A stretch of 64,000 bases of DNA. It comes from Hyphomicrobiales bacterium (lineage in GTDB: Bacteria; Pseudomonadota; Alphaproteobacteria; Rhizobiales; Aestuariivirgaceae). The stretch spans positions 1 to 64,000 of the forward strand of contig JACPNZ010000013.1 in NCBI GenBank assembly GCA_016185245.1. The letters run 5' to 3'. The first letter of the stretch is position 1; every line of letters begins with the position of its first letter. The position numbers were made by a program, and so were the translations under genes. The notes under the pieces were generated by a model. The model ran no database searches. It saw nothing but the letters and a program-made list of their open reading frames with translations, and had not been told where the DNA came from. Of this stretch, positions 25,387-53,249 are shown piece by piece.

Positions 25387-26173
25387 CTTCCGGCTTCCGC
25401 GCCCGCAGATGGGTGGGACAATGTTCGCCGCTTTCGAGGACCGGCAGCATGTTGGACCAGATGGCGATGTTGTGGTCGACGAACTCGGTGCCGAGCTTGG
25501 CGGCGGCGGCCCCATAGAGCGGTCCCTTGAGGCGGGCCAATTCCTGGCGGGCGGTGTCGCGATACCAGGCATTGCGGCTCAGCGTCGTCACTTTGTCGAA
25601 GCCCGCCTGGGCCAGGGCATCGGCATAGCGCGATGGCGAGGCCATGCCGAAGTCGAGCCCTTCCGAGACGATGTAGGCTTTCATCTCGGCACTCGGCTCG
25701 CCGTCATGTCCGATCAGCCAGTCGGAGGCAACAAACCAGCCGCCCGGCTTGAGCACCCGGAAAACCTCGCGCATCAGGGCGTGCTTGTCGGGGATGTGGA
25801 CAATCGAATCCTTGCTGAACACGATATCGAAGGTCCTGGGCGGAAACGGCAGGGGCCCCGGCGCCACCTTGACCAGGCCGATGCGGTCGCCAAGCCCCGC
25901 CCGTTCGACCCGCTGGCGGGCCTTGCCCAGCACCGTGTCCTCGACATCGATGCCGGTGACATAGAGAGCGCCATGGGTGCGGACCAGGAGAATGTCGATG
26001 CCGCCCGCCCCGCAGCCCACGTCCAGCACCGTCTTCCCCGCGAGATCGACGCCTTGGATGAGCCGGCCCACCTCCTCGGGTCCGCCCGGCGACAGCCAGC
26101 CATCGCCCCACAGGCGTTCCAGGATATCGACGAGATCGTCGCTGTAGAACTCGTGCGGCGTGTCCTGATCCAT
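25367..26173 (-). CDS. Class I SAM-dependent methyltransferase
   Basis: TVLDVGCGAGGIDILL, VFSKDSIVHIPDK, EVFRVLKPGGWFVASDWL. Confidence 0.88.
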   Translation of the reverse strand: MDQDTPHEFYSDDLVDILERLWGDGWLSPGGPEEVGRLIQGVDLAGKTVLDVGCGAGGIDILLVRTHGALYVTGIDVEDTVLGKARQRVERAGLGDRIGLVKVAPGPLPFPPRTFDIVFSKDSIVHIPDKHALMREVFRVLKPGGWFVASDWLIGHDGEPSAEMKAYIVSEGLDFGMASPSRYADALAQAGFDKVTTLSRNAWYRDTARQELARLKGPLYGAAAAKLGTEFVDHNIAIWSNMLPVLESGEHCPTHLRARKPEVTRSPA

Positions 26174-26205: not shown

Positions 26206-27639
26206 TCAAGCCGGAAGGCCATGCAGCGGCGGACGGCGGTTTCGCCACGGCATTGCCGTCTCGAGGAGCGCGCCGAGTTCGATCAGCACATATTCCTCCG
26301 CGTGGCGGGCACCCAGCTGCACGCCGATCGGTAACCCGTTGGAATGCATGGCGAGCGGCAGCGACAGGGCCGGCTGCCCCGCCACATTATAGGGCACCAT
26401 GAACTGGCAGGGCCGCTGCTCGTGGATCAGGAATTCCTCGGGGCCGATGTCGATGTTCATGCCATAGACGCCGTTGGGCTGGGCCACCTGCGCGCAGGTG
26501 GGCGACAGCCACACGTCATAGGTCTGGAAGAATGCGCCCATGTCGCGGCGCAGGCGATTGAACACCGCCATCGCCGCGAAGAAAGCGTCCGCCGTCTGGC
26601 GCTTGGCGAACTCATAGAACTTGAGAGTTGCTTTCTCCACCGTATCGGGCCCGACCTTGCGGCCGGCGAGTTCTCCGAGTCCATCGAGATACTTGTCGAA
26701 CTGGAAATACCACAGGTTCTTGCAGCCCTCGTCCATGGCGGCCAGATCGATCTTCGGCTGGGCCTCCTCGACATCGCAGCCATGCTCGGCAAGGACCAGC
26801 GCCACGCGCTCGACGGCCGCAGCGATCTCCGGATCGACGGGTGCATCCATCAGCGGCTTGGCCGACCAGCCGACGCGGAAGCGGCGCCTGCTTCCGGCCA
26901 GAAAATCCGCCCACGGACGGTCCGGCCGGGCGATCACATAGGGATCGCCGGGCATGGGCTGACCCAGGCGGTCGAGCATCGCCGCCGTATCGCGGAGCGA
27001 CCGGGTGACGCAGAAGGCCTGGGCCATGCCGAAGCCGTGCTCGTCCTCGCCGGGTCCGGCCGAGACGCGGCCGCGCGACGGCTGGAGCCCCACGGTGCCG
27101 CACCAGGCCGCCGGCCCCCGGGTCGAGCCGCCCATGTCGGAAGCATGGGCCACGGGTACGATCCCGGCCGCCACCGCCGCCGCCGCGCCCCCCGACGAGC
27201 CGCTGGTCGAATAGCCCTTCTTCCATGGATTGGAAGTCGTGCCATGCAGCAGATTGTCGGCGCACAGCGCCATGGAAAACTCCGGCACGTTGGAGCGGCC
27301 GAGCAGATTGACGCCCGAGGCATAGACGAGCTTGGCGAAATAATCATCCTCGGCCACGACCGTTCCGGCGCACAGGCGGCTGCCCTGCTCGGCCCTGCGG
27401 CCCTTGAAGTGGAACCCTACATCCTTCACCAGATAGGGCACGCCATGGAACCGTCCGGACCTGAGCTTCGATGTGTCGCGGGCATCGGAATAGAGCTCGA
27501 CGACCGCATTGATCTCGGGGTTGATGGCGGCGTGGGCCGCAAGGGCGGCATCCATCACCTCGAGCGCCGAAATCTCCTTGCGGGCGATGAGGCCCGCCAG
27601 GCCGAGGCCGTCCTTGCGCACATATTCATCGATCCGCAT
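26206..27639 (-). CDS. Amidase (amidase signature family)
   Basis: PYLVKDVGF, STSGSSGGAAAAVAAGIVPVAHASDMGGSTRGPAAWCGTVGLQPSRGRVS. Confidence 0.92.
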   Translation of the reverse strand: MRIDEYVRKDGLGLAGLIARKEISALEVMDAALAAHAAINPEINAVVELYSDARDTSKLRSGRFHGVPYLVKDVGFHFKGRRAEQGSRLCAGTVVAEDDYFAKLVYASGVNLLGRSNVPEFSMALCADNLLHGTTSNPWKKGYSTSGSSGGAAAAVAAGIVPVAHASDMGGSTRGPAAWCGTVGLQPSRGRVSAGPGEDEHGFGMAQAFCVTRSLRDTAAMLDRLGQPMPGDPYVIARPDRPWADFLAGSRRRFRVGWSAKPLMDAPVDPEIAAAVERVALVLAEHGCDVEEAQPKIDLAAMDEGCKNLWYFQFDKYLDGLGELAGRKVGPDTVEKATLKFYEFAKRQTADAFFAAMAVFNRLRRDMGAFFQTYDVWLSPTCAQVAQPNGVYGMNIDIGPEEFLIHEQRPCQFMVPYNVAGQPALSLPLAMHSNGLPIGVQLGARHAEEYVLIELGALLETAMPWRNRRPPLHGLPA

Positions 27640-29186
27640 TACGCACCCCGCATCGCCTCGCGCGGCAGGCGCACCGGGAAGCGGTCGCGGATCGCCTGAT
27701 TGATGTGCGGCGGAATGTGATCGGGATAATGGCTGGCGAGAATGGCCTTGAGCTTCGCCGCTGCCTTGTCGAGAGCCGTGGGACGGCCCTGTTCCACCCA
27801 CTCCTTGGGACTGGTGCGGTCGCCCACCGCCGGATAGAGATAGTCGCGCTGCATGCGGGCCAGCGTCTGCTCGCTGCCGAGGAAGTGATTGGGGCCGCCA
27901 AGGCAGGTGGCGCGGATCGTCTCGACCGACAGGGCCCCGTCGGTCACCTCGATGCCGCGGATCGTCCGCTGGGTGGCGCCGATGATATCGTTGTCGATAA
28001 TGAGCTGCTCGAGGCTGAAGCCCAACAGGCTCGCCATCATGCCGGCCGACTCATAGCAGAGATTGGCCCCGGCATTGCCGACAAGCGCGTGGTTATAGGC
28101 CTTTTCGTAGCCCGCCTGCACGTCGGGCATCTTGGAATCGGTCATGCCCGAGGGCGTGCCGCAGGTGAGTTCGTAGAACTGTGCCACCTGGGCCGCCGCC
28201 GCCGACAGGAGCGCCTGCTCGGGACTGCCGCCCGACATGGCCCCGGTGCGGAGATCGGAGACAAAGCAGAAGGGACCGAAGATGGCGGGCGCACCCTTCT
28301 TCACCGCGTTGACATAGAAAAGGCCGGCCAGGCACTCGGCGATTTCCTGAACCAGCGAGCCGGCGATCGCCGCCGGCGAGGTGGCACCCGCCTGGCCGGC
28401 CGAGACCAGAAACACCGGCATTCCCGCCCGCACCGCCACCTCCAGGCAACGGCAGGAGTCTTGTGCAAAGCGCAGCGGCGGCACCACGAAGCAGTTCGAC
28501 TGGCTGACGAAGGGCCTCGCCCGCCACTTCGCCTCGCCGCCGGCGATCAGATGCAGCATTTCGAGCGAAGCCGGCATGTGGGCGGGATCGCCCCAGCTGG
28601 TGCCGACGTGCTTGGCGGTTCCGGCGACACTGGCATAGCAGGTGTTGAAATCCATCTCGAAGGGATCGGCGAGATCGCGGCAGACGATGCTGCGCTGATA
28701 GAAATGCACATGCTCCAGGGCATCGACGGTGCGGGCGATGTCATACTGGTCGCGGGTGGTCGAGTCGCGGTATTCGCCGGTCCTGGCATCGACCATGTAG
28801 ACAGCGGCTCCCGCCGTTCCGAAATAGACGCGACGGCCCCATGGCTCGAGATCGTGGCGCGGCTCCTGTCCGTAGAGCACGAAGTAACGCCCCGCGCCGG
28901 CGATCATGTCCTCGATGAGGGCCCGCGAAAAGGTGATGCGGCCGTTGGTCTGTAGCTCGGCGCCGGCACTGGTGAGAAGCTCGACGCCTGAGGACGGCGC
29001 GTCGGCCATGCCGATCTCGGCCAGCACATCGAGGGCGGCGGCATGGACCCGCCGCACGTCCGGGTCGGCGAGGGGGCGATAGAGACCGCCCTCCATGCCC
29101 GGCCATACCGGCCGCTGATTGGCGGCAAGCGGGGCGGCCCTGAGTGCTCTGCGGGCCTCGCGCCCGCCTTTGCGGATTTCCTGCAT
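27639..29186 (-). CDS. Trimethylamine methyltransferase (MttB) family protein, non-pyrrolysine form
   Basis: 515 aa uninterrupted; RVHAAALDVLAEIGM, GTAGAAVYMVDARTGEYRDST, CLGGPNHFLGSEQTL. Confidence 0.88.
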   Translation of the reverse strand: MQEIRKGGREARRALRAAPLAANQRPVWPGMEGGLYRPLADPDVRRVHAAALDVLAEIGMADAPSSGVELLTSAGAELQTNGRITFSRALIEDMIAGAGRYFVLYGQEPRHDLEPWGRRVYFGTAGAAVYMVDARTGEYRDSTTRDQYDIARTVDALEHVHFYQRSIVCRDLADPFEMDFNTCYASVAGTAKHVGTSWGDPAHMPASLEMLHLIAGGEAKWRARPFVSQSNCFVVPPLRFAQDSCRCLEVAVRAGMPVFLVSAGQAGATSPAAIAGSLVQEIAECLAGLFYVNAVKKGAPAIFGPFCFVSDLRTGAMSGGSPEQALLSAAAAQVAQFYELTCGTPSGMTDSKMPDVQAGYEKAYNHALVGNAGANLCYESAGMMASLLGFSLEQLIIDNDIIGATQRTIRGIEVTDGALSVETIRATCLGGPNHFLGSEQTLARMQRDYLYPAVGDRTSPKEWVEQGRPTALDKAAAKLKAILASHYPDHIPPHINQAIRDRFPVRLPREAMRGA

Positions 29187-40287: not shown

Positions 40288-40509
40288 TCAGGCCTTCGTG
40301 TCGTCGCAGCCGATCTCGATGGCGGGGCGTTCGCCGTCACGCTTGGCGGCGATGCGGAAGGCCTCCAGCGTATCGGCATCGAGCAGCCCACGGGTATAGA
40401 AATACATGGCGGCGGCATAGCGCACCCGGCCCGACTGCAGCTCGCCCACCGGGGCATTGAGGTACTGCCACTGGCGGCGGTCCTCGGCCGTCTCGATCAC
40501 GATTGTCAT
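40288..40509 (-). CDS. Small hypothetical protein (73 aa) at the end of the Rieske/ABC operon
   Basis: MTIVIETAEDRRQWQYLNAPVGELQSGRVRYAAAMYFYTRGLLDADTLEAFRIAAKRDGERPAIEIGCDDTKA; start 5 nt after preceding stop. Confidence 0.65.
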   Translation of the reverse strand: MTIVIETAEDRRQWQYLNAPVGELQSGRVRYAAAMYFYTRGLLDADTLEAFRIAAKRDGERPAIEIGCDDTKA

Positions 40510-40513
40510 GGGC

Positions 40514-41353
40514 TTAGGCATTGGCGGCGATCGCCATCTGGACGTCGCGCTCGCGCCGCCGCTCGGCCCGGCCGAGCAGGTAGCTCGACAGCCCGACACC
40601 GCAGGCGACCACCAGCACGATGATGGTGGCCAGCGCATTGATGTCGGGCGTCACCCCGAGCCGCACCTTGCTCCAGATGAGGATCGGCAGGGTGGTGTAG
40701 CCCGGCCCGGTGGTGAAATTGGTGATCACTACATCGTCGATCGAAATGGTGAAGGCCAGGAGCCAGCCCGACAGGATGGCGGGGGAGATGATCGGCAGGG
40801 TCACGTCCTTGAGCACCTGCCAGGGCTTCGAACCCAGATCCATCGCCGCTTCCTCGACCGACATGTCCATGGACTGGAGCCGCGCCTGCACGATGGTCGT
40901 CACATAGGTCATCGAGAAGGTGATGTGGGCGATGGTGATGGTGGTGAAGCCGCGCGAGCCCGGCCAGCCGATCCACTGGGCCATCATGATGAACAACAAG
41001 AGCGAGGAAATGCCGGTGATCACTTCCGGCATGATCAAGGGCGCGGTGACCAGCCCGGAAAACAGGGTGCGCCCGGGAAAGCGCCGGAAGCGGGCGAGCG
41101 CGATGCCGGCGAGCGTGCCGAGAACGGTGGCGAGCGTGGCGCTGAGGAGGGCTATCTTGAGCGACAGGATGGCGGCGTTGAGGATCTGCGCGTTGTCGAA
41201 GAGCTTGCCGTACCATTGCAGCGAGAAGCCGCCCCACACGGTCGCCAGCCGCGAGCGGTTGAAGGAGAAGAAGATCATCGACAGGATCGGCACGTAGAAG
41301 AAGGCAAAGCCGAAGGCGAGGCAGCCGATGAGGAAGATGGGCCGCCGGTTCAT
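40514..41353 (-). CDS. Spermidine/putrescine-type ABC permease (PotC/PotI-like)
   Basis: NRRPIFLIGCLAFGFAFFYVPILSMIFFSFN; EEAAMDLGSKPWQVLKDVTLPIISPAILSGWLLAFTISIDDVVITNF. Confidence 0.92.
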   Translation of the reverse strand: MNRRPIFLIGCLAFGFAFFYVPILSMIFFSFNRSRLATVWGGFSLQWYGKLFDNAQILNAAILSLKIALLSATLATVLGTLAGIALARFRRFPGRTLFSGLVTAPLIMPEVITGISSLLLFIMMAQWIGWPGSRGFTTITIAHITFSMTYVTTIVQARLQSMDMSVEEAAMDLGSKPWQVLKDVTLPIISPAILSGWLLAFTISIDDVVITNFTTGPGYTTLPILIWSKVRLGVTPDINALATIIVLVVACGVGLSSYLLGRAERRRERDVQMAIAANA

Positions 41354-42276
41354 GGCGCCTGCTCCGCGCCGGCCCGGGCCCTGGCGTCGAAATAGCTGTA
41401 GAGGACCGTCTGCACCACCAGCAGCACGAGCAGCGCCACGGCAACGGCCGAGGCCATTGGCCAATCCTGGGCGATCGAGAACTGGTCGCTGATGACGCGG
41501 CCGATCATCGGGTCGGCGGCATTGCCGACGAGGCTTGGGATGATCAGCTCGCCCGAGGCCGGAATGAAGACCAACAGGCCGCCGGCGATGATGCCGGGCA
41601 CCGACAAGGGCAGGGTCACGTCCTTGAACACCTGCCAGGGCCTCGATCCGAGATCGAGTGCCGCCTCGTTGAGGTTGAGATCGAGCTTCTCGAGATTGGC
41701 GTAGAGGGGCAGGATCATGAAGGGCAGGTAGGAATAGACCATGACCAGCACCACGGCGAAATTGGTGTTCATCATGTGCAACGAGGTGATGGCCCAGTCG
41801 GCCGGCACGAGGGCATTGTAGATGGCGGTTGCCGCGCGGTTGAACCAGCTATTGGTGCCCATCAGGCCAATCCAGGCATAGACGCGCAGCAGGAACGAGG
41901 TCCAGAACGGCAGGATCACCAGCATGAGCAGCAGCCTCTGGGTCGACCGCGATACCCGCGTCATGCCCAGCGCCATCGGATAGCCGATCAGCAAACACAA
42001 CCCGGTGGCGATGGCGGCGTTGCGGATCGAGACGAGATAGGAGCGGATATAGAGCGTGTCGGTGAAGAGCCGGCCGTAGCTGTCGAGGCGCACATAGGGC
42101 CATTGGGGAAGATAGGCGAAGGGCGGCGATTGCGTCGCGGTCCTCGCCAGGCTCATGGCCACCACAATGACGAAGGGTGCGAGGAAGAAGGCGACGAGCC
42201 AGGCATAGGGTGCGGCGATGATGAAGTCGCGCCAGCCGCGCCGGTCGAACCAGCCCTGGTGCGCCGGCGCCGTCAT
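41350..42276 (-). CDS. Spermidine/putrescine-type ABC permease (PotB/PotH-like)
   Basis: NEAALDLGSRPWQVFKDVTLPLSVPGIIAGGLLVFIPASGELIIPSLVG. Confidence 0.92.
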   Translation of the reverse strand: MTAPAHQGWFDRRGWRDFIIAAPYAWLVAFFLAPFVIVVAMSLARTATQSPPFAYLPQWPYVRLDSYGRLFTDTLYIRSYLVSIRNAAIATGLCLLIGYPMALGMTRVSRSTQRLLLMLVILPFWTSFLLRVYAWIGLMGTNSWFNRAATAIYNALVPADWAITSLHMMNTNFAVVLVMVYSYLPFMILPLYANLEKLDLNLNEAALDLGSRPWQVFKDVTLPLSVPGIIAGGLLVFIPASGELIIPSLVGNAADPMIGRVISDQFSIAQDWPMASAVAVALLVLLVVQTVLYSYFDARARAGAEQAP

Positions 42277-43385
42277 GTGCCGGCCTTCAGCAGGATGGCG
42301 GAGCCGGGCTCGAAGGTGAGGAACACCCGGTCCTCCCAGGTGACCGCGGTTTCGCCGACGCCGAGCCTCCTGGCGTTGACCGTGTTGACCGACAGGATGT
42401 GGCCGTTGTCGAGCTTGATGCGATAGAGCGAATCCTTGCCGAAATAGCCGAAGTCCTGCACCGTGCCGGGGATGACGTTTGCCGCGCCGTCGGGGCGGGT
42501 TCGGGCGATAGCGAGCTTCTCGGGGCGCACCGCGAAGATTGCTCTTTCACCCGTGGAGAAATTCTCGCGCATCGTCACCGTCAATTCGGCCGCGAGCTGC
42601 CGCACGGCGATCCGGGCGTGGCCGGAGGCCACCTCCCGCACCTCGGCTTCGGCCATGTTGATCGAGCCGATGAAGCCCGCCACGAAGCTGCTGTTGGGAT
42701 ATTCGTAGACTTCGGCCGGGCTGCCGATCTGGCGGATGACACCCTTGTCCATCACCGCGACGCGCGAGGCGAGCGTCATCGCCTCCTCCTGGTCGTGAGT
42801 GACGACGATGAAGGTAATGCCGGTCTTGTACTGGATGTTGGCGATCTCGAACTGGGTGTGTTCGCGCAACTTCTTGTCGAGAGCGCCGAGCGGCTCGTCG
42901 AGCAGCAGGAGCTTGGGCTGGCGGGCGAGCGACCGGGCCAATGCCACACGCTGGCGCTGGCCGCCCGAGAGCTGATGCGGCTTGCGGCCGGCAAGCGGGG
43001 AGAGCTGCACCAGGGCCAGCATTTCTTTCACCCGATCGCGGCGCGCCGCCGGGGTCATCGTCTCGTGCTTGAGGCCGTAGCCGACATTGGCCTCGACCGT
43101 CATGTGCGGGAAGAGGGCGTAGGACTGGAACATCATGTTGACCGGCCGCCCATAGGGCGGCACCCCGGTCATGTCCTGGCCGTCGATAGAAACCTTGCCG
43201 ACACTCGGCGTTTCGAAGCCGGCAAGCACCCGCAAGAGCGTGGTCTTGCCGCAGCCCGAGCCGCCGAGAAGGGCAAACAGCTCGCCCCGGGAAATGTCGA
43301 GCGACACGTTGTCAACGGCGGTGAAGTCGCCGAATTTCTTGGTCACCCCGTCGATGCGGATGAACGGGGCGTTGCTTGCCGGCAT
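42273..43385 (-). CDS. Spermidine/putrescine-type ABC ATP-binding protein (PotA/PotG-like)
   Basis: GGSGCGKTTLLRVLAGFETPSVGKVSIDG, HQLSGGQRQRVALARSLARQPKLLLLDEPLGALDKKLRE. Confidence 0.93.
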   Translation of the reverse strand: MPASNAPFIRIDGVTKKFGDFTAVDNVSLDISRGELFALLGGSGCGKTTLLRVLAGFETPSVGKVSIDGQDMTGVPPYGRPVNMMFQSYALFPHMTVEANVGYGLKHETMTPAARRDRVKEMLALVQLSPLAGRKPHQLSGGQRQRVALARSLARQPKLLLLDEPLGALDKKLREHTQFEIANIQYKTGITFIVVTHDQEEAMTLASRVAVMDKGVIRQIGSPAEVYEYPNSSFVAGFIGSINMAEAEVREVASGHARIAVRQLAAELTVTMRENFSTGERAIFAVRPEKLAIARTRPDGAANVIPGTVQDFGYFGKDSLYRIKLDNGHILSVNTVNARRLGVGETAVTWEDRVFLTFEPGSAILLKAGT

Positions 43386-43389
43386 GCTG

Positions 43390-44490
43390 TCAGCCCGACT
43401 TGATCGCCTGCCAGGCCCTGGTCATTTCGCGTTCCTGCTCTTCGGAAAGCGCCTTCAATGGCCACAGGCGCTTGATCGTCGCTTCGTCGGGATAGACCGC
43501 CGGATCGGCCAGCACGGCGGGATCGACGAATTTCTTCGAAGCGGCGTTGCCGTTGGCGTAATTGGTGAAGTTGGTAGCCTTGGCGATCACCTCCGGCTGC
43601 AGCATGTATTCGAGGAACTTGTAGGCGCTGTCCTTGTGCTTGGCATCGCTTGGAATGCATAGGGCATCGACCCAGGCGGGGGCTCCGGTTTTCGGCACGA
43701 AGTAGCCGAGATTGATGTCGACGCCGGCGTCCTTGGCGCGCGATCTGGCGGTGGCATAGTCGCCCGACCAGTTGTTGATGACGCACAGTTCCTTGTTGGG
43801 GATGGCGTTCAGGTAATTGGTGTTGTCGAAGGTCTTGATGTATTTGCGCACCGGCTTGAACAGCTCGACGACAGCCTGATAGTCGGCGACATTCGCCGTG
43901 TCGCCGTCCTTGCCGACATAGCGCAGCAGGGCCGGGATCACGTCGGTCGGGCTGTCGAGGATCGATATGCCGCAGTCGGCGAGCTTGGCGGCGTTTTCCG
44001 GCTTGAACAGCGTGTCGAGCGAGGCGAGATCGGCGCCGGGCAGGCGCTGCTTCACCATGTCGAGGTTGTAGGTGATACCGACCGAGCCCCACATATAAGG
44101 GATGGCATATTGGTTGCCTGGATCCCAGCCGCCGAGGATGCGCATGACTTCCGGATCGAGATTGCCCCAGCTCGGCAGCTTGCTGCGGTCGAGCTTATCG
44201 TAGATGCCAGCCTTGATGAAGCGCGGCAGGCTGAGGCCCGCCATGTCGACGACATCATAGCCGGTCGATCCCGCCAGCATCTTGGCCTGCATCTCCTCGG
44301 CCGAACTGTAGGTGTCGTAGGTGACGGCGATGCCGGTCGCCGACTGGAAGTCGGCGATGGTGGTTTCGCCGATGTAGTCGGCCCAGTTGTAGACGTTGAG
44401 CGCGGCGCCCTCGGCGCGGGCTTTTCGCACATAGGGCATCGCCAGCGTCGCAGCGCCGGCCATGAGTGCCGCGCGTCTAGTTATTGACAT
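43390..44490 (-). CDS. Spermidine/putrescine-type ABC substrate-binding protein (PotD/PotF-like)
   Basis: LNVYNWADYIGETTIADFQSATGIAVTYDTYSSAEEMQAKM. Confidence 0.92.
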   Translation of the reverse strand: MSITRRAALMAGAATLAMPYVRKARAEGAALNVYNWADYIGETTIADFQSATGIAVTYDTYSSAEEMQAKMLAGSTGYDVVDMAGLSLPRFIKAGIYDKLDRSKLPSWGNLDPEVMRILGGWDPGNQYAIPYMWGSVGITYNLDMVKQRLPGADLASLDTLFKPENAAKLADCGISILDSPTDVIPALLRYVGKDGDTANVADYQAVVELFKPVRKYIKTFDNTNYLNAIPNKELCVINNWSGDYATARSRAKDAGVDINLGYFVPKTGAPAWVDALCIPSDAKHKDSAYKFLEYMLQPEVIAKATNFTNYANGNAASKKFVDPAVLADPAVYPDEATIKRLWPLKALSEEQEREMTRAWQAIKSG

Positions 44491-44529: not shown

Positions 44530-45732
44530 TCACGATTGCATGCGGGCCCTCAGCCTGGCGTTGAGGGCCGCCATGTCCGCTCCGGCGGGAGCCTGATCGA
44601 GGGTCACCACCGGCAGGATCTGGCGCAGCCGGTCGTGGTGGGTGCGAACGCCGCGCTCCAGATCGGAAAGATAGAAGCCCTCGAAGGCGGATGATTTCAT
44701 CGACTCGTTGGACCAGATCGAAAGCTGAGTATCTTCCTCGTAGGTTTCGCGGTCAATGCGGTAGGAGAGGTAGCGGGCCAGCTTTTGCTCGCGGGCTTCG
44801 TCGGGCCGGCGGTAGATCATGCCGCGCACCAGGGCGCGGTCGACCGCCATCGGCAGTTCCTGGTAGAACTGCACGGTCTCCGGCGTGGCGATGATGACGC
44901 TGTTGGGGAAGAGCCCGTAATAGGCCCACACCTTGCGCCGGTCTTCGGGAAGCCAGTCGAGGCCGCCCGCCAGCTTCAGATAGTTGCGCACAGTCCAGCG
45001 CCGTCCGCCGTGGGAGACGAAATATCCCTTGGCGCAGTTGAGGCCGTCGGGATAGTCGATGTCGTGGTAGGTGGGACCATAGAGGTCCTGGAGCGCCGGG
45101 TGCGCCATCGGCACATGGTAGCCCTCGTTGTCGACGTCGCGCACCGACTTCCAGTTCACCGGCAGGGTGTTCTTCCACATCTTGCCGGTCGGCACCATCT
45201 CGGCCGGCCGGTAGGGTGCCAACTCGCTTTCAAAGCGCGCCAGGTGCTCGGCGACCGACGGCTGCGGACCTTTGCGGAAACGGACGAAGATGAAACCCAT
45301 CCAGACTTCCATTTCGATCGGACGGAGACCCATCTTGGAGCGGTCAAGGGCGGCATAACTGTTGGGACGCGCAGCACCTCGCAAGGTGCCGTCGAGATTG
45401 TAGACCCAGCCGTGAAACGGGCAGACCAGGGCATTCTTGCAGTGGCCGGTATCACCCACGGCAACGCGCGAGCCGCGATGCCGGCACAGATTGTGGAAGG
45501 CCCGGATGACGCCGTCGTCGCCGCGGACAATGACGGCGCGATCGTCGCAGACATCGAAGGTCAGATAGTCGCCGATCGCCGGCACATCGTTGATGTGGCC
45601 GGCGATCTGCCAGCGGCCGAGGAACAGTTCCGTCTTCTCCAGTTCGAGCAAATTGGCATTGTGATAGGTCCAGGCCGGAAGGCCCCGGCGGTCCCAGTCG
45701 TTGGAAACTTGCTTACCCGTAGCGATCTGCAT
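44530..45732 (-). CDS. Rieske non-heme iron oxygenase alpha subunit (2)
   Basis: CRHRGSRVAVGDTGHCKNALVCPFHGWVYNLDG (Rieske); NWKSVRDVDNEGYHVPMAHPAL (mononuclear Fe site). Confidence 0.9.
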   Translation of the reverse strand: MQIATGKQVSNDWDRRGLPAWTYHNANLLELEKTELFLGRWQIAGHINDVPAIGDYLTFDVCDDRAVIVRGDDGVIRAFHNLCRHRGSRVAVGDTGHCKNALVCPFHGWVYNLDGTLRGAARPNSYAALDRSKMGLRPIEMEVWMGFIFVRFRKGPQPSVAEHLARFESELAPYRPAEMVPTGKMWKNTLPVNWKSVRDVDNEGYHVPMAHPALQDLYGPTYHDIDYPDGLNCAKGYFVSHGGRRWTVRNYLKLAGGLDWLPEDRRKVWAYYGLFPNSVIIATPETVQFYQELPMAVDRALVRGMIYRRPDEAREQKLARYLSYRIDRETYEEDTQLSIWSNESMKSSAFEGFYLSDLERGVRTHHDRLRQILPVVTLDQAPAGADMAALNARLRARMQS

Positions 45733-45733
45733 T

Positions 45734-46882
45734 TTAGCCCTCCAACTGCCGCCTGACCCATTGCTGAAAATTGAACACGTCATATTCCTGCGGCATCAGC
45801 CGGCCGGCCGTGAAGGCCGAGGATTTGAGGCCGCGCTGGTTCATTTCGCTCGCCGCGCCATCCTCGGCGACCACCCGCTCGACCAGTGCGGTCGCCGCCT
45901 GGAGATCGAAGCCGGGGGCTTCCAGCGTCGCCTTGGCGAACAGCCATTCGGCGCGAAGTTCGGTGCGCTCCGGCCCGAGCGGCCGCAGCGAGACAACCCG
46001 CACGTAGTCGACATGGGCCACCAGATACGTGGTGGGGTACAGCGTCACGAAGGTCTGGCCGCGGGCTTTCTCTTCCTCGCTGAGACCGGGGAAATCGGGG
46101 CCGCAGGGCTCACCCGAGACGGTCCAGCTACGCGCGCCCGGCTTGAGGCGCGTTCCGCGCTCGGGACTGGCGGGCGTCCAGTCGGGCGCCTCGTTGGCCG
46201 CCATGTAGCCCTTGCCGTAGATCGGCACCACCTCGCACAGTTCGGGATGAATGCCGGGGCAGTGCAGGCATTCATTGTAGTTCTCCCAGAAGATCTTCCA
46301 GTTGCAGGCAAGCTCCTTGACCATGGTGCGGCCGGTCATCAGTTCGGTCATCGGCCAATGGTCGAGAGCCTTGGCGCCGAGATCGGGAACCCGCTCGAAA
46401 TCGGGTGGCGGGTCGGCGAGGCAGATGAAGATCAAGCCGTTCCATAGCCTGACATTGACCTTGAACAGGCCATGGTCTTCCTTGCGGAAATCGCCGGTCA
46501 CCGAGACATAGGGGGTGCTGCGGAGGTTGCCTTTCAGGTCATAGGCCCAGGCATGATAGGGGCAGACGATGAGCTTCGCGGCGAGCCGGGTTTCGGCGGC
46601 ACTGCACAGCTCGGCACCACGGTGCCGGCAGGTGTTGTGGAAGCAGGCGATGGTGCCGTCACCGTCCTTCACCAGGATCAGGTTTTCGCCGGCGATGGCG
46701 AGCCGCCTGACCGTCATCGCCGGCAGATCGTTGACCCGGCCGGCATAGATCCAGTTCCGCCGCCAGATACGCTTGAGCTCGAGGTCGTGATGGGCGGGAT
46801 CAAAGTAATAATGGGCCGGCAGGCTGTCGGGGCAGCGGTCGAGCAGCGGCGAGCCGGTCTGCGGCGTCGATAATTCGCTCAT
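45734..46882 (-). CDS. Rieske non-heme iron oxygenase alpha subunit (1), GbcA/CntA-like
   Basis: CRHRGAELCSAAETRLAAKLIVCPYHAWAYDLKG (Rieske); NWKIFWENYNECLHCPGIHPEL; start at MSELSTPQ with GGAGGGA upstream. Confidence 0.88.
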   Translation of the reverse strand: MSELSTPQTGSPLLDRCPDSLPAHYYFDPAHHDLELKRIWRRNWIYAGRVNDLPAMTVRRLAIAGENLILVKDGDGTIACFHNTCRHRGAELCSAAETRLAAKLIVCPYHAWAYDLKGNLRSTPYVSVTGDFRKEDHGLFKVNVRLWNGLIFICLADPPPDFERVPDLGAKALDHWPMTELMTGRTMVKELACNWKIFWENYNECLHCPGIHPELCEVVPIYGKGYMAANEAPDWTPASPERGTRLKPGARSWTVSGEPCGPDFPGLSEEEKARGQTFVTLYPTTYLVAHVDYVRVVSLRPLGPERTELRAEWLFAKATLEAPGFDLQAATALVERVVAEDGAASEMNQRGLKSSAFTAGRLMPQEYDVFNFQQWVRRQLEG

Positions 46883-46923: not shown

Positions 46924-46947
46924 TTTTGATTGACTTGTCAATCAAAA
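46924..46947. promoter_or_regulatory. Candidate TetR/BetI-like operator
   Basis: TTTTGATTGAC-TT-GTCAATCAAAA, perfect 11-bp arms, in the divergent intergenic region between Rieske gene 1 and the tetR gene. Confidence 0.7.
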
Positions 46948-47038: not shown

Positions 47039-47710
47039 ATGAACAGGACGGCGGCCGAACCTGCAGCGATTGCCCTGCCGCGCAAGGCGAGTCGCGAACA
47101 TCGCCGCCAGCAGCTGATCGATGCCACTATCGAGAGCCTCGCCAGGCGGGGCTACGCTCAGACCACGATGACCGATGTGGCGGTCACGGCGGGCGTGTCG
47201 CACGGCCTGGTCAACTTCCATTTCGACACCAAGGAGAAACTCCTCACCGAGACCCTGCTCTATCTCGCCGAGGAATATCGCGACAACTGGTTGGCAGCGC
47301 TTGCCGCCGCACCCGCCGATCCCGCCGCCCAGCTCGATGCCCTGATCGTTGCCGATTTCAACGAGCGCATCTGCACGCCGAGCAAGCTGGTGGCCTGGTG
47401 CGCCTTCTGGGCCGAGGCCCAGAGCCGGCCGATCTATCAGGAGAAATGCGGCGCCAACGACCTCGCCTATATCCGCAACCTCGAGGAAATCTGTGCCAGA
47501 CTGGTCGCGGCCGGCAACTATCGTCACAGTCCCCAGCGGGTGGCCAGAGTGCTGCGGGTGACCGCCGAGGGAACCTGGCTCGATCTCTTGTCGATGATCG
47601 AACCCTATTCGCGCGACGAGGCGCTGCGCACCGTCTATGCCTGCGCCGCCGCCTTCTTTCCCGATCACTTTGACGAAGCGGGGCTGCGCAAGCCTTCCGT
47701 GGATAATTGA
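47039..47710 (+). CDS. TetR family regulator, BetI-like
   Basis: TTMTDVAVTAGVSHGLVNFHFDTKEKLL (HTH), SKLVAWCAFWAEAQSRPIYQEKC (BetI-type C-terminal). Confidence 0.88.
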   Translation: MNRTAAEPAAIALPRKASREHRRQQLIDATIESLARRGYAQTTMTDVAVTAGVSHGLVNFHFDTKEKLLTETLLYLAEEYRDNWLAALAAAPADPAAQLDALIVADFNERICTPSKLVAWCAFWAEAQSRPIYQEKCGANDLAYIRNLEEICARLVAAGNYRHSPQRVARVLRVTAEGTWLDLLSMIEPYSRDEALRTVYACAAAFFPDHFDEAGLRKPSVDN

Positions 47711-47844: not shown

Positions 47845-48762
47845 ATGTGTGGAATTGCTGGAATTCTCTATAAGGGTGCCGCGCCCGACGCCAGGGTCGG
47901 CCGGGCCCTGATCGACATGCTGGACGGCTGCCAGCACCGCGGACCCGACTCGACCGGATTCTCCCTCTACCGCGAGGCCCGTCCCGGTCACCTCCGCCTG
48001 CGCTTCATCGTCGGCAGCGGCGCGGACGCCGAGGTAGCGATCGAGCGGGTGAAAGCCAAGCTTGCCGAATTCCAGGCCCGCATCGTCGAGGAAGAGCACC
48101 TGGGTTCCTCCTATGCCGCCCTGATCAAGTTCGACGGCGATCTGCAGCGCTTGGCTTTCGAGATGGAGCACGCCGCCAAGCTCTCGTCCATCGGCGAAAG
48201 TCTCGACATCATCAAGGACCTGGGCGGCGCCCATGACGTCGACAAAGTCTACAAGATCGACAAGTTCCGCGGCAGCCACGGCATCGGCCACGTGCGGCTG
48301 GCGACCGAATCGGACGTCGCCCCCGAGGCCACCCACCCGTTCTGGGCCACCGGTTTCGCCGACATCTCGATCGTCCACAACGGCCAGATCACCAACTACT
48401 ACAAGATGCGCCGGCGGCTCGAGAAGCAGGGCTACTTCTTCAATACCGACAACGACTCGGAGCTGATCGCCGTCTATCTGGCCGACAAGCTGAAGCATGG
48501 CCACACGCTGAAGGACGCCCTCAAGACCTCGATCGAGGACCTCGACGGCACCTTCTCCTTCCTGGTCTCGACCAAGGACGAGATCGGCTATGCCAAGGAT
48601 CGGCTGGCGGCGAAGCCCATGGTGAAATACGAGGACGACGACATCATCGCCATCGCCTCGGAAGAGGTTTCGCTCAACCGCCTGTTCCCCGGCCACGCCC
48701 TCAACACCACCGAACCCGCACCCGGAACCTTCGACACATGGCAACTATCGACCTCAGCCTGA
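47845..48762 (+). CDS. Class II glutamine amidotransferase, GlxB/MgsA-like
   Basis: MCGIAGILYKG (Cys2 nucleophile), CQHRGPDSTGFSLY, GIGHVRLATESD, NDSELIAVYLADKL. Confidence 0.88.
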   Translation: MCGIAGILYKGAAPDARVGRALIDMLDGCQHRGPDSTGFSLYREARPGHLRLRFIVGSGADAEVAIERVKAKLAEFQARIVEEEHLGSSYAALIKFDGDLQRLAFEMEHAAKLSSIGESLDIIKDLGGAHDVDKVYKIDKFRGSHGIGHVRLATESDVAPEATHPFWATGFADISIVHNGQITNYYKMRRRLEKQGYFFNTDNDSELIAVYLADKLKHGHTLKDALKTSIEDLDGTFSFLVSTKDEIGYAKDRLAAKPMVKYEDDDIIAIASEEVSLNRLFPGHALNTTEPAPGTFDTWQLSTSA

Positions 48763-50693
48763 CGCCGGTCCGCCAGGCCAATGAGCTCTTGCGCAAATAT
48801 GGAGCCGACGGCGTCGACGTCGAGGTGTTGAACCCGGACGCCCGCCACCACATCGGCGTCGGCCTCACCCATCCGATCAATGTGCATGTGAAGGGCTCGG
48901 CCGGCTATTTCTGCGCCGGCCTCACCGACGGACCACGCTTTATTGTCGACAACAATGTCGGCTGGGGCCTCGGCGACAACATGCTCGGCGGTTCCATTAT
49001 AGTGAACGGCAATGCCTCGGCCATTCCGGGTGTCGCTATCCGTGGCGCCGAGATCGTGGTCAAGGGCAACATCGGCTCGCGCGCCGGCCAGGTGATGAAG
49101 GCGGGAACCCTGCTCGCCTGCGGCAATGCCAATTTCATGGCGGGCTACATGATGTATGGCGGCCGCCTGATCATTCTCGGCCAGTCCGGCGAGAAGGTCG
49201 GCCAGGATATGACCGGCGGCAACATCTATGTGGCGGGCAAGCTCGCCGAAATGGGCACCGATGCCATGTTGACCGATCTGCCCGCCGCCGAACTCGACGA
49301 CATCCGCGCCTTCCTCGACAAGTACCAGATCGCCTTCAAGGGCACATTCCAGAAGATCGTCAATGCCGGCAAGAAGCTGCGCTATGCGAGGAACGAGCCG
49401 CGCCGGAGAGCCATTCCCTTTTTCGAGAGCTTCGCCGACAACGCCTACTGGAACGCCAAGGTTCAAGAAGACATCCACATCAAGTCACAGATCGGCCGCT
49501 ACCGCATCCGGGGCTATGGTGCCGCCCGCGCCATGCCGCATATTTCCGATCTGGCTTTCAGGAAGGATATTTCGATCGGCGCCGGCAGCGATCCCGATGT
49601 CATCTGCAAGGTGCACATGAAGACCGAGATCGGCGGCCGCAGCGGCGCCAATCCGTTGAAGCTGTCGATGCCGGTGATGATCGCCCCCATGTCCTATGGG
49701 GCCCTGTCGAAATCGGCGAAGCTCGCCTTGGCCATCGCCTCGAGGCTTTCCGGCACCTCCGAGAACACCGGCGAGGGCGGCATGTCTAAGGAGCAGCGGG
49801 CCGAAGCCAACCAGATCATCTACCAGTGCCTGGCCGGCCGCCTGGGCTGGAACATCCACGACATGCGCCAGGCCAACGGACTTGAAATCTACATCAGCCA
49901 GGGCGCCAAGCCGGGCCTCGGCGGCCAGTTGATGGCCAAGAAGGTGACGCCCGAGATCGCCCGCATCCGCGGCATTCCGGCCGGCATCGATCTGCGCTCG
50001 CCGTCGCGCCACCCGGACGTGCTCGGCGCCGACGACCTGGTGATCAAGGTCGAGGAGTTTCGCGAGGCGACCGGCTATCGCATTCCGGTGTCGGTCAAGC
50101 TCGGCGCGGGACGGGTGCGCGACGACATCAAGATCGCCTGGAAGGACGGTTTCGACTTCGTCGAGTTGGACGGCATGCAGGGTTCGACCGGGGCGGCCGG
50201 CAATGAGGTTCTGGAATTCGTCGGCATCCCGACGCTGTCGGCCATTCAGGAGGCCCGCGATGCGCTGACCGAGGTTGGCGGCCTCGACATGCCGATCGTG
50301 CTGATGGGCGGCATCAAGGACGGCATCGACACGGTGAAGGCCCTGGCGCTTGGGGCCCACGCGGTGGCGATGGGGACCTCGGCGATCATCGCCGGCGGCT
50401 GCATCGCCTGTCTCCAGTGCCATGTCGGCACCTGTGTCACCGGCATCGCCACCCAGGACCCGGAACACGAGAAGCGCTACAACATCCCGGCCGAGGCCCA
50501 GAACATCCATCACTTCCTTGAGTCGGTGCGCTGGCAGATCGCCGCCGTCACCCATGCCCTGGGCTATTCCGATCCCCATGAGGTGAGCCGCGACGATCTC
50601 GTCGCGCTGACGCCGGAAGCCGCCGCCATCACCCGGCTTCCCTACGCTCCGGAATACCGCGAGCGGCAGCCGGATCTGCGCAAGGCCTCATAG
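48738..50693 (+). CDS. GXGXG domain + FMN-binding glutamate-synthase-like fusion (GlxC-GlxD / MgsB-MgsC-like)
   Basis: GXGXG repeats (MLGGSIIVNGNASAIPGVAIRGAEIVVKGNIGSRAG) then APMSYGALSKSAKLALA, TGEGGMSKEQRAEANQIIYQ, CIACLQCHVGTC. Confidence 0.88.
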   Translation: MATIDLSLTPVRQANELLRKYGADGVDVEVLNPDARHHIGVGLTHPINVHVKGSAGYFCAGLTDGPRFIVDNNVGWGLGDNMLGGSIIVNGNASAIPGVAIRGAEIVVKGNIGSRAGQVMKAGTLLACGNANFMAGYMMYGGRLIILGQSGEKVGQDMTGGNIYVAGKLAEMGTDAMLTDLPAAELDDIRAFLDKYQIAFKGTFQKIVNAGKKLRYARNEPRRRAIPFFESFADNAYWNAKVQEDIHIKSQIGRYRIRGYGAARAMPHISDLAFRKDISIGAGSDPDVICKVHMKTEIGGRSGANPLKLSMPVMIAPMSYGALSKSAKLALAIASRLSGTSENTGEGGMSKEQRAEANQIIYQCLAGRLGWNIHDMRQANGLEIYISQGAKPGLGGQLMAKKVTPEIARIRGIPAGIDLRSPSRHPDVLGADDLVIKVEEFREATGYRIPVSVKLGAGRVRDDIKIAWKDGFDFVELDGMQGSTGAAGNEVLEFVGIPTLSAIQEARDALTEVGGLDMPIVLMGGIKDGIDTVKALALGAHAVAMGTSAIIAGGCIACLQCHVGTCVTGIATQDPEHEKRYNIPAEAQNIHHFLESVRWQIAAVTHALGYSDPHEVSRDDLVALTPEAAAITRLPYAPEYRERQPDLRKAS

Positions 50694-53249
50694 ATGAGTT
50701 CCAACGTCATTACCGTCTACGACATCAACCGGGTGCGTCCGCCCAAGGCGCCGGGCCGCGACGATACGGCCGACCCGCATTTCGTGCCCGCACCCTGCCA
50801 GGTGGCCTGTCCGGTCGGCACCGATGCGCCCTCCTATATCGGCTTCATCTGGGAAGAGAAATACGCCGAGGCCTTCGAGGCGATCACCGCCACCAATCCG
50901 TTCTCCTCGATCTGCGGCAGGGTTTGCGATGCGCCCTGCGAGCCCGCCTGCCGCCGCGCCGACAGCGATGGCCCGATCGCCATCCGCAATCTGAAGCGCT
51001 ATGTCATGGACAAGCTCGGCAAGGACCATCATTTGCCAGCGGTCCAGGTCACCCGCAAGGAGACCGTCGCCGTCGTCGGCGCCGGCCCCGCCGGCCTCAC
51101 CGCCGCCCACGATCTCGCCGAGGCGGGCTTCGAGGTCCATGTCTACGAGATGATGGACAAGCCTGGCGGCATGATGGTGTGGGGTATTCCCGCCTTCCGC
51201 CTGCCGCCGGGCATCATCGAAGAGGACATGCAGCGCCTGTTCGACCATTGCCCGGGCATCAAGCTCCATTGCGGCGTCGCACTCGGCAAGGACGTGACCC
51301 TTGACCAATTGAAGACCCGCCACGCGGCGGTGCTGCTGACCATCGGCTCCTGGTGGGGCAAGCCGATGGGGATCGCCGGCGAGACCCACCCCAACGTGGT
51401 CGATGGCGTCGGCTTTCTCCGCCGCATCAATGCCGGCGAACGGCCGATCTTGCCCGAGAAAGTTCTGGTGGTGGGCGGCGGTGACGTCGCCATGGATGCC
51501 TGCCGGGCGGCTCTCCGCCTGCCCGGCGTCAAAGAGGTGAAGGTCGTCTACCGCCGCGGCCCCAAGGAAATTCCGGCCCGCAAGGAGGAACTGAAGCAGG
51601 CGATCGAGGAAAACATCGAGATCGTCTACAACACCCTGCCGGTCTCGGTGGTGAATGACGGGGGCCGCTTCGCGCTGCGCTGTGTCGAGACCCGCATGGG
51701 TGCTCCCGGCCCCGACGGCCGCCGCAAGCCGGAAACCGTTCAAGGTTCCGAGCGCGACTTCGACTGCGGCATGGTGATCATGGCGGTCGGCCAGAAGGCC
51801 GAGCTGGCGGAACTCGAAAAGGCCGGGCTGATGGCCGGCGACCGGGTGAAGACCGACTGGAACTCCATGCGCACCGCCGATCCAAAGATTTTTGCCGCCG
51901 GCGACGGCGCCTTCGGCGGCTCGACCATCGTCATGGCGATGATGCACGGCCACCGCGCCGCCCACTATGTGAAGGCCCATCTCGACGGCATCACGGAGCC
52001 GCTCGCCTATCGCACCCCCTACCGCACCCGCCATGTGGCCGCCGCCCAGGACATCAACTGGGAAATCTTCCCGCGCCGCGAACAGAAATTCAACGGGCTC
52101 GGCGCCAATCCTGTGGCCTTCCCGGAAATCGAGATGACCTATGACGACAAGACCGCCAAGGAAGAGGCGGCCCGCTGCTACCGCTGCGACGCCGAGACGG
52201 GCTCCGCCGACTATTCGGTGAGAGCCCGTGAGGACATCTTCGTCATGGCCCGCACCCCGGTCAGCGATCTTCGCACCCAGGCGGCGATCCTGCAGAAGCA
52301 CCTCAAGCCCAAGGACAATCCCTTCCCGGCAAATCACCATGCCTCGTTCGAGGACCTGGTGTTCCTGCCGGCCAATCTGTCGCGGCTGGTGATCGATCCC
52401 TATCGCGATGCCTGTAATGTGGCGACCGACCTGGCCTCCAGCGTCAAGCTCGACATTCCGGTGATCGCCGCCGGGCTCGATGCCCTGCCGGCAGATACCA
52501 AGCCCGCCCTTGGTGCAGCGCTTGCCAAAGTCGGCTCGGCCTATTTGGGGCGCGATGCCCTTCCCGGAAGCACCGCACCCTGGCTGCAGCTCATCGTTCT
52601 CGGCGAAGACAGGCCGGAGGCCGCTGCCGCCGCTCATGTTTATGTCCAGCCTGCGGGCTTCACGCCCTTCAAGGTGGAAAGACAGCCCGGCAAGCTCGTG
52701 GGTCTGGCGGCGCGCGCCAGTGAACTGGAGAAGGCCATTCCCTTCGCCCTGGAGAGGGGCTTCGACCTGATGCTGCTCGATGGCTCGGCCGGGATCGCGA
52801 CCGGCTGGCCGGAGCTCAAGGGCCATCCGGATTTCACCGTGCTGCGCGATGCCATGCGCATCCTCCGCCGCATGAACCGCGAGGAAGATATCGACTTTAT
52901 CTATTTCGGCGGCGTGCGCTCCGGCACCGACGTGGCCAAGCTCCTCGGCCTCGGCGCCAAGGCCGGCTGCATCGGCATGACCATGGCCCTGGCGCTCGGC
53001 GGCGAACTCGGCCCCGATGGGCTGCAGTTCTTCGGCGACCGCTCGCCCGACGAGCGCATCGATGCGGCGGCCTCGATCATCAACGCCATGTCGGCGGAAG
53101 CCTCGATCATGGCCCGCTGCACCGGCAAGACCGACGTGCGCAACATCGAGCCGGAAGATTTGCGGTCGATCACGCTGGCCAGCGCCCGGGCCTTCGGCGT
53201 GCCCCTGGCGGGCGCCAAGCGCGGCACGGTCATCGAAGCGGCCGAGTGA
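50694..53249 (+). CDS. GltD-like FAD/Fe-S oxidoreductase with an extra barrel-like C-terminal region
   Basis: CQVACPVGTDAPSYIG...SICGRVCDAPCEPACRR (Fe-S), VAVVGAGPAGLTAAHDLAEAGFEVHVYE (FAD); C-terminal IYFGGVRSGTDVAKLLGLGAKAGCIGM. Confidence 0.85.
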   Translation: MSSNVITVYDINRVRPPKAPGRDDTADPHFVPAPCQVACPVGTDAPSYIGFIWEEKYAEAFEAITATNPFSSICGRVCDAPCEPACRRADSDGPIAIRNLKRYVMDKLGKDHHLPAVQVTRKETVAVVGAGPAGLTAAHDLAEAGFEVHVYEMMDKPGGMMVWGIPAFRLPPGIIEEDMQRLFDHCPGIKLHCGVALGKDVTLDQLKTRHAAVLLTIGSWWGKPMGIAGETHPNVVDGVGFLRRINAGERPILPEKVLVVGGGDVAMDACRAALRLPGVKEVKVVYRRGPKEIPARKEELKQAIEENIEIVYNTLPVSVVNDGGRFALRCVETRMGAPGPDGRRKPETVQGSERDFDCGMVIMAVGQKAELAELEKAGLMAGDRVKTDWNSMRTADPKIFAAGDGAFGGSTIVMAMMHGHRAAHYVKAHLDGITEPLAYRTPYRTRHVAAAQDINWEIFPRREQKFNGLGANPVAFPEIEMTYDDKTAKEEAARCYRCDAETGSADYSVRAREDIFVMARTPVSDLRTQAAILQKHLKPKDNPFPANHHASFEDLVFLPANLSRLVIDPYRDACNVATDLASSVKLDIPVIAAGLDALPADTKPALGAALAKVGSAYLGRDALPGSTAPWLQLIVLGEDRPEAAAAAHVYVQPAGFTPFKVERQPGKLVGLAARASELEKAIPFALERGFDLMLLDGSAGIATGWPELKGHPDFTVLRDAMRILRRMNREEDIDFIYFGGVRSGTDVAKLLGLGAKAGCIGMTMALALGGELGPDGLQFFGDRSPDERIDAAASIINAMSAEASIMARCTGKTDVRNIEPEDLRSITLASARAFGVPLAGAKRGTVIEAAE

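Follow-up and report, generated by a model that had tools for sequence, protein, structure and literature searches.

Two genes for Rieske oxygenase alpha subunits, here called RA and RB, lie in tandem in a 64,000-nucleotide stretch of DNA (the window) from a Hyphomicrobiales bacterium. Their arrangement raises the question of what the two enzymes oxidize, whether they work together, and from where they draw electrons. The caffeine N-demethylases NdmA and NdmB offer one model for such a pair, as these are two distinct Rieske alpha subunits that carry out successive N-demethylations with one shared electron donor. RA and RB differ from this system in that their sequence match to it is weak (E ~1e-4), the Ndm substrates are xanthines, and no reductase is encoded near the RA-RB pair.

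Two Rieske oxygenase genes in a conserved operon

The initial annotation described two tandem Rieske alpha subunits at positions 44530-46882, and both open reading frames are indeed found there with intact domains (Table 1). Matches to the Rieske and Ring_hydroxyl_A domains are strong for RA (E=2e-18 and 1e-38, respectively) and for RB (E=2.8e-17 and 6.2e-29). The C-x-H...C-x2-H Rieske ligands are present in all 24 RA and all 106 RB homologues, and the iron ligands H208, H213, and Asp (CntA numbering) are found in every RA and RB homologue aligned, leaving the 2-His-1-carboxylate site intact. As read from these sequences, RA and RB are Rieske non-heme iron oxygenase alpha subunits with complete ligand sets. 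The two proteins are only ~27% identical, which argues against a recent duplication. The most likely start codon of RB is the ATG at 45732, which follows the RA stop codon by 1 nucleotide (TAA A ATG), and this spacing suggests that RA and RB are probably coupled in translation. An upstream ATG at 45783 is an unlikely start because it lies within RA.

Table 1. Features of the RA-RB operon and its surroundings (positions in the window)
Feature	Coordinates	Strand	Length, start, and basis
RA, Rieske oxygenase alpha subunit	45734..46882	-	382 aa, ATG 46882; domains, tree, residues, fold
RB, Rieske oxygenase alpha subunit	44530..45732	-	400 aa; domains, tree, residues, fold
PotF-type solute-binding protein of the co-directional ABC importer	43390..44490	-	profiles; adjoins RB in most RA+RB congeners
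PotG/PotA-type ATPase	42273..43385	-	profiles
PotH-type permease	41350..42276	-	named from position and homologues
PotI-type permease	40514..41353	-	named from position and homologues
Small ORF, probable final operon gene	40288..40584	-	~98 aa; likeness by eye to part of a cupin
BetI-like TetR-family repressor, divergent from RA	47039..47710	+	profiles, conserved order
Perfect inverted repeat, putative operator, in the RA-TetR gap	46924..46947	.	pattern searches

The order of these genes, with the TetR gene followed by RA-RB-PotF-PotG-PotH-PotI, is kept in congeners and on an annotated plasmid of Fuscovulum ytuae. The F. ytuae operon additionally includes a class III aminotransferase, two FAD oxidoreductases, a GcvT-like aminomethyltransferase, a DMSP-lyase-family cupin, an amidohydrolase, and a methyltransferase. 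The window has a shorter form of the operon, with only the oxygenases, the importer, and the small ORF. By eye, this ORF resembles the N-terminal part of the DMSP_lyase-family cupin that occupies this place in other genomes, and it returned no family match in a profile search. A full cupin of this family (Pfam 2.7e-20; locus L043, 15521-16420) and its homologues form the last gene of RA-RB-Pot operons, and this protein cluster is present in 20 loci.

The inverted repeat in the gap between RA and the TetR gene has perfect 11-bp arms, TTTTGATTGAC-TT-GTCAATCAAAA. A related pattern, TTGANTG N(4-8) CANTCAA, occurs at 38 places in the 2.2 Mb of collected RB loci and at none in shuffled sequence. Most copies are located near the TetR gene, upstream of RA/RB, or else in the gap that separates the aminotransferase from PotH in RB clusters. 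Because the loci were collected for holding RB, it is the consistent placement of the palindrome, and not its count alone, that serves as evidence. The palindrome is common to RA+RB and RB-only clusters, and its N6 form occurs once in this genome.

Other genes in the window encode methyltransferases. A SAM methyltransferase gene (25367-26173, minus strand) lies ~19 kb from RB, and its homologues, a protein cluster present in 32 loci, adjoin RB elsewhere. An MttB-family trimethylamine-type methyltransferase gene (27639-29096, minus strand) is located beside an amidase gene (26206-27639, minus strand). The MttB-family protein has no in-frame amber codon and scores 359.8 bits against a cut-off of 525. 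An MttB-like ORF adjoins RB in locus L143, as judged by eye.

Both oxygenases carry glutamate at the bridging position

The iron-site motifs read NECLHCPGIH in RA and NEGYHVPMAH in RB, and the Glu in each had been proposed at the outset to occupy the bridging position. We used MAFFT to align the 24 RA and 106 RB homologues with E. coli YeaW/CntA, S. meliloti Stc2 (recognized by its match to 3vca/4qup), the aromatic-ring hydroxylases NdoB, XylX, AntA, HcaE, and CarAa, and several GbcA-like sequences. The latter served as references because no GbcA above the curated cut-off was found among 190 genomes of the class; they fall below that cut-off themselves (best 527 versus 670 bits) and thus are not proven GbcA enzymes. 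The Glu of both motifs falls in the column of CntA residue E205 (24/24 RA, 106/106 RB), which bears out the proposal. This column is also Glu in CntA, Stc2, and the GbcA-like enzymes, and it is Asp in all of the aromatic references. Residue E205 is the bridging residue of CntA according to mutational and EPR work (PMC7948474).

Judging from the same alignment, the bridging Glu is not diagnostic for group V, the quaternary-amine Rieske oxygenases, since two enzymes outside this group carry it too. These are the remaining Rieske oxygenases of the genome, a Glu-bridged pair that forms a separate clade. They are encoded at L058, 9180-10361 (C32) and L059, 9115-10206 (C18), and both have Phe203 and no Cys pair.

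Two other sites are more informative. Position 203 (CntA numbering) is Tyr in 24/24 RA and Asp in 105/106 RB sequences, and it is Asn in Stc2 and in three GbcA-like reference rows. In the numbering of the window proteins, the aligned residues are Tyr202 of RA and Asp201 of RB. Distant relatives of RB have Tyr or Asn here. Subclades with Tyr203 and with Asn203 have been described, and Tyr203 of CntA binds the quaternary ammonium group by a cation-pi contact (PMC7948474). A pair of cysteines beside the iron site, Cys206/Cys209, is present in every RA and in none of the RB sequences (24/24 versus 0/106). This Cys-x-x-Cys pair is given as unique to some members of group V (PMC10952381).

RA is a quaternary-amine oxygenase by descent, and RB forms a clade of its own

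In a maximum-likelihood tree of 66 sequences, RA falls within the clade of CntA, Stc2, and the GbcA-like enzymes (support 97/96, 98% of bootstrap trees). By its place in this tree and its residues, RA is a group V Rieske oxygenase and adds a member to a known enzyme kind. Its closest affinity within the group is divided between two subgroups. RA has the aromatic residue at position 203 that marks group Va and shares Glu205, the Cys206/Cys209 pair, and the 2-His-1-carboxylate set with CntA/YeaW, although the tree makes it only a weak sister of CntA (80/61). By pairwise sequence search and by fold, RA is instead nearer to Stc2 of group Vb, which is its closest solved structure by sequence (7e-50) and the top match of its confident AlphaFold2 model (pLDDT 89.3). 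Stc2 likewise shares the Cys pair with RA, but has Asn rather than Tyr at position 203.

RB and its relatives form a clade with support of 100/100 that lies outside the group V clade (97/96) and is its sister at 91/70 only. AU tests of alternative groupings did not reject RB with the C18/C32 clade (p-AU 0.31) or with the aromatic enzymes (p-AU 0.20). A sister grouping of RA and RB was rejected (p-AU 0.012), in agreement with the original view that the two subunits are clearly different. Neither of the residue signatures of group V is found in RB, where the Cys pair is missing (0/106) and position 203 is Asp (105/106) rather than Tyr/Phe or Asn. The RB model (pLDDT 91.8) does have CntA, a group V enzyme that shares Glu205 with it, as its top match in the fold search, and CntA is also its closest solved structure by sequence (1e-29). 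We give this likeness in fold less weight than the tree and the residues, which set RB apart. Both proteins score below the curated cut-off of the GbcA model NF058607 (670 bits), with 183.7 bits for RA and 140.6 bits for RB. We conclude from these comparisons that RB most likely stands outside group V, in a separate Glu-bridged clade. The suggestion that both copies belong to the quaternary-amine clade thus holds for RA and is not supported for RB, which is a widespread variant lineage for which we found no described function.

Because the tree does not reject a grouping of RB with the aromatic references, and the initial annotation had named a placement within the aromatic-ring hydroxylases as grounds for abandoning its reading, it is worth considering whether RB, or both enzymes, might be ordinary aromatic-ring hydroxylases. 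We regard this as highly improbable. RA is placed firmly in group V, and every RA and RB sequence has Glu where all aromatic references have Asp. Moreover, the plasmids read have amine genes as the annotated neighbors of RB and none for a beta subunit, a dihydrodiol dehydrogenase, or ring cleavage. An aromatic role for RB is therefore disfavored by its residues and its neighbors, even though the tree allows it.

RB occurs widely and usually without RA

The RB alignment, used to scan GTDB genomes, found at least 80 loci. Among the loci listed, the hosts include Mesorhizobium, Shinella, Rhizobium, Phyllobacterium, Ruegeria, Sulfitobacter, Planktomarina, SAR116, and others, with both Rhizobiaceae and Rhodobacterales represented. 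We then considered the 64 listed loci in which RB is flanked by 6 kb or more on each side; these are not independent because many come from close Mesorhizobium relatives. A second Rieske gene near RB is RA in 7 of these loci, a protein called D25 in 4, and another in 3, with none of these kinds in the remaining 50. D25 represents a second group V lineage that carries Tyr203. Since a clade of RA and D25 is rejected (p 2e-6), RB has acquired partners from two separate group V lineages. One Roseovarius MAG locus (L130, 7748-12845) holds three Rieske genes, whose products are CntA-like (41% to YeaW), RB (54%), and RA (44%).

Among the congeners, RB is found without RA in four (G004, G009, G023, and G026; 94-100% complete), and RA without RB occurs only once, in a genome that is 79% complete (G011). 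RB thus stands mostly alone, and among congeners RA almost never does. This asymmetry points to RB as the core enzyme, to which the group V partner adds a preceding step.

This distribution bears on the initial proposal that the pair acts either by sequential demethylation or as a hetero-oligomer. RA and RB might form a single alpha3-alpha'3 assembly in which electrons cross from the Rieske cluster of one subunit to the iron of the other. Such an arrangement has a precedent in NdmA/NdmB, which are listed as an alpha3-alpha'3 assembly with the shared reductase NdmD (PMC12445004), and it would suit the gene arrangement, as almost every congener with RA has its gene next to that of RB, overlapping it, or a short distance away. 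However, the 50 well-flanked loci and four congeners that have RB with no RA, together with a congener in which RA and RB are on separate contigs (G025), are difficult to reconcile with an obligate complex. Each protein also has its own full ligand set. We therefore disfavor an obligate hetero-oligomer, consider a joint assembly of any kind distinctly unlikely, and favor sequential action.

RA and RB could also act in parallel on two different imported amines under one regulator. Their clades and their residues at the substrate position differ, and RB alone supports the cluster in many genomes, as would be expected if the two had separate tasks. Against this, the near absence of RA without RB among congeners suggests that RA feeds the pathway of RB, and we find parallel action rather unlikely. 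The class III aminotransferase is of a different subfamily in RB-only and RA+RB clusters, and so the two types of cluster may serve different compounds.

Electrons most likely come from a general ferredoxin encoded elsewhere

No GbcB/CntB-type reductase had been noticed near the pair, and the domain search agrees, as it returned neither FNR (PF00175) nor 2Fe-2S ferredoxin (PF00111) on the contig of the window (C57). Likewise, no ferredoxin-reductase gene is annotated beside the pair in the homologous plasmid clusters. The RA/RB locus thus departs from the two-component CntAB/GbcAB arrangement, in which an FNR-ferredoxin reductase gene such as CntB/YeaX adjoins the oxygenase gene.

A GltD-like Fe-S flavoprotein (50694-53249) had been put forward as the only local donor candidate. 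It is the sole protein near the pair to unite flavin, Fe-S, and NAD(P) domains, so this part of the description stands. Its gene is the third of a block (47845-53249, plus strand) that encodes a glutamine amidotransferase, a GXGXG-glutamate-synthase (GXGXG-GltS) fusion of 651 aa, and the GltD-like protein of 851 aa, and RA-RB pairs elsewhere lack this block as a neighbor. Four congeners have the middle gene at 90-92% identity, on contigs other than that of the pair, with GltD adjoining it at the two places read. In addition, no plant-type ferredoxin domain was found in the GltD-like protein. With no conservation beside RA-RB, we reject it as the donor, a role that now seems scarcely credible, and as far as the evidence goes it is an accidental neighbor. 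The protein has a degenerate C-terminal FMN-type domain, and the block is perhaps N-methylglutamate-synthase-like. RB is only 58-59% identical in the four congeners with the highly similar middle gene.

The single FNR-ferredoxin fusion found in the genome (C30:290869-291831) is a second candidate. Along almost all of its length it matches YeaX, the reductase of carnitine monooxygenase, at 41% identity, and it could be a dedicated donor for both oxygenases. However, this reductase has an obvious other role, because it stands in a Tmm-Tdm-DmmA-HODM cluster for trimethylamine and dimethylamine. Three congeners with RA and RB, G003 and G006 (91-92% complete) and G032 (100%), furthermore yielded no YeaX-like reductase or other such fusion, which argues against an obligatory role. 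A dedicated role is doubtful in our view. Another congener (G027) is without a YeaX-like orthologue and has a different fused reductase near an unrelated Rieske gene.

The lack of a fusion in these three congeners makes a general ferredoxin with a separate reductase likelier. In our view, a general [2Fe-2S] ferredoxin and its reductase, both encoded elsewhere, are the most likely donor. One suggestion for such a pair is found on C22, where a Fer2 ferredoxin is encoded beside a thioredoxin-reductase-like flavoprotein.

The C30 cluster (L165, 7622-15047) encodes Tmm, Tdm, DmmA, HODM-like, and GcvT-like proteins in addition to the reductase. Its trimethylamine monooxygenase scores 857 bits (cut-off 675) and its TMAO demethylase 1214 bits (cut-off 1100). 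This Tmm-Tdm-Dmm pathway, known from marine alphaproteobacteria, uses flavin, GcvT-like, and heme enzymes in place of Rieske oxygenases such as RA and RB, and it could take up methylamines that are released.

A proposed pathway for a methylated amine

From the domains, ligands, bridging Glu, clades, conserved operon, palindrome, and missing local reductase, we infer a substrate class, an order of steps, a mode of repression, and a source of electrons. In the reading that we favor, and to which we assign a probability of about one half, the genes form a single methylated-amine operon under TetR control in which RA and then RB act in sequence with electrons from elsewhere. The PotFGHI-type importer would bring a methylated amine into the cell, and the divergently transcribed BetI-like protein would control the operon through its single palindromic putative operator. 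RA, with its Tyr203 and Cys206/Cys209, would most likely oxidize the quaternary ammonium form, by either N-demethylation or C-N cleavage. RB would most likely take the next step and oxidize a tertiary or secondary amine in its protonated form. Such a substrate could be bound through Asp203 of RB, by a salt bridge with an added hydrogen bond, a combination that is impossible with quaternary ammonium. Electrons might be supplied by the general ferredoxin and reductase described above or possibly by the YeaX-like reductase of this genome.

The placement of RB after RA is drawn from their asymmetric occurrence and from one residue. Because distant relatives of RB have Tyr or Asn at position 203, its Asp there may be a sign of another substrate and not of a later step. 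Importers of the PotF type transport numerous cations and therefore reveal little about N-methylation, and the literature offered nothing usable on homarine or other named substrates. The aminotransferase and GcvT-like genes in related clusters fit a stepwise demethylation that proceeds to a primary amine. In congener G005 (locus L046), a trimethylamine pathway lies near the RA-RB-Pot operon, which fits a release of methylamine, and we make no choice between this route and stepwise demethylation.

A broader and decidedly tentative reading, which we think possible if not probable, is that RB is the founding member of a class of Rieske N-dealkylases that is separate from group V and has not been described before. 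Its members would recognize protonated tertiary, secondary, or primary amines by Asp203, would use general ferredoxins as donors, and would have repeatedly enlisted a group V enzyme, RA or D25, to carry out the quaternary step before theirs.

The RB lineage is widespread in rhizobia and marine alphaproteobacteria, where it is accompanied by a conserved amine-catabolism cluster and its own palindromic box. The missing local reductase makes the question of its electron donor directly testable. Likewise, the presence of Asp203 in RB and Tyr203 in RA within one operon provides a ready test of how Rieske enzymes discriminate between quaternary and protonated amines. Identification of the RB substrate would extend the known cycle of methylated amines, in soil as well as in the sea, by one step.
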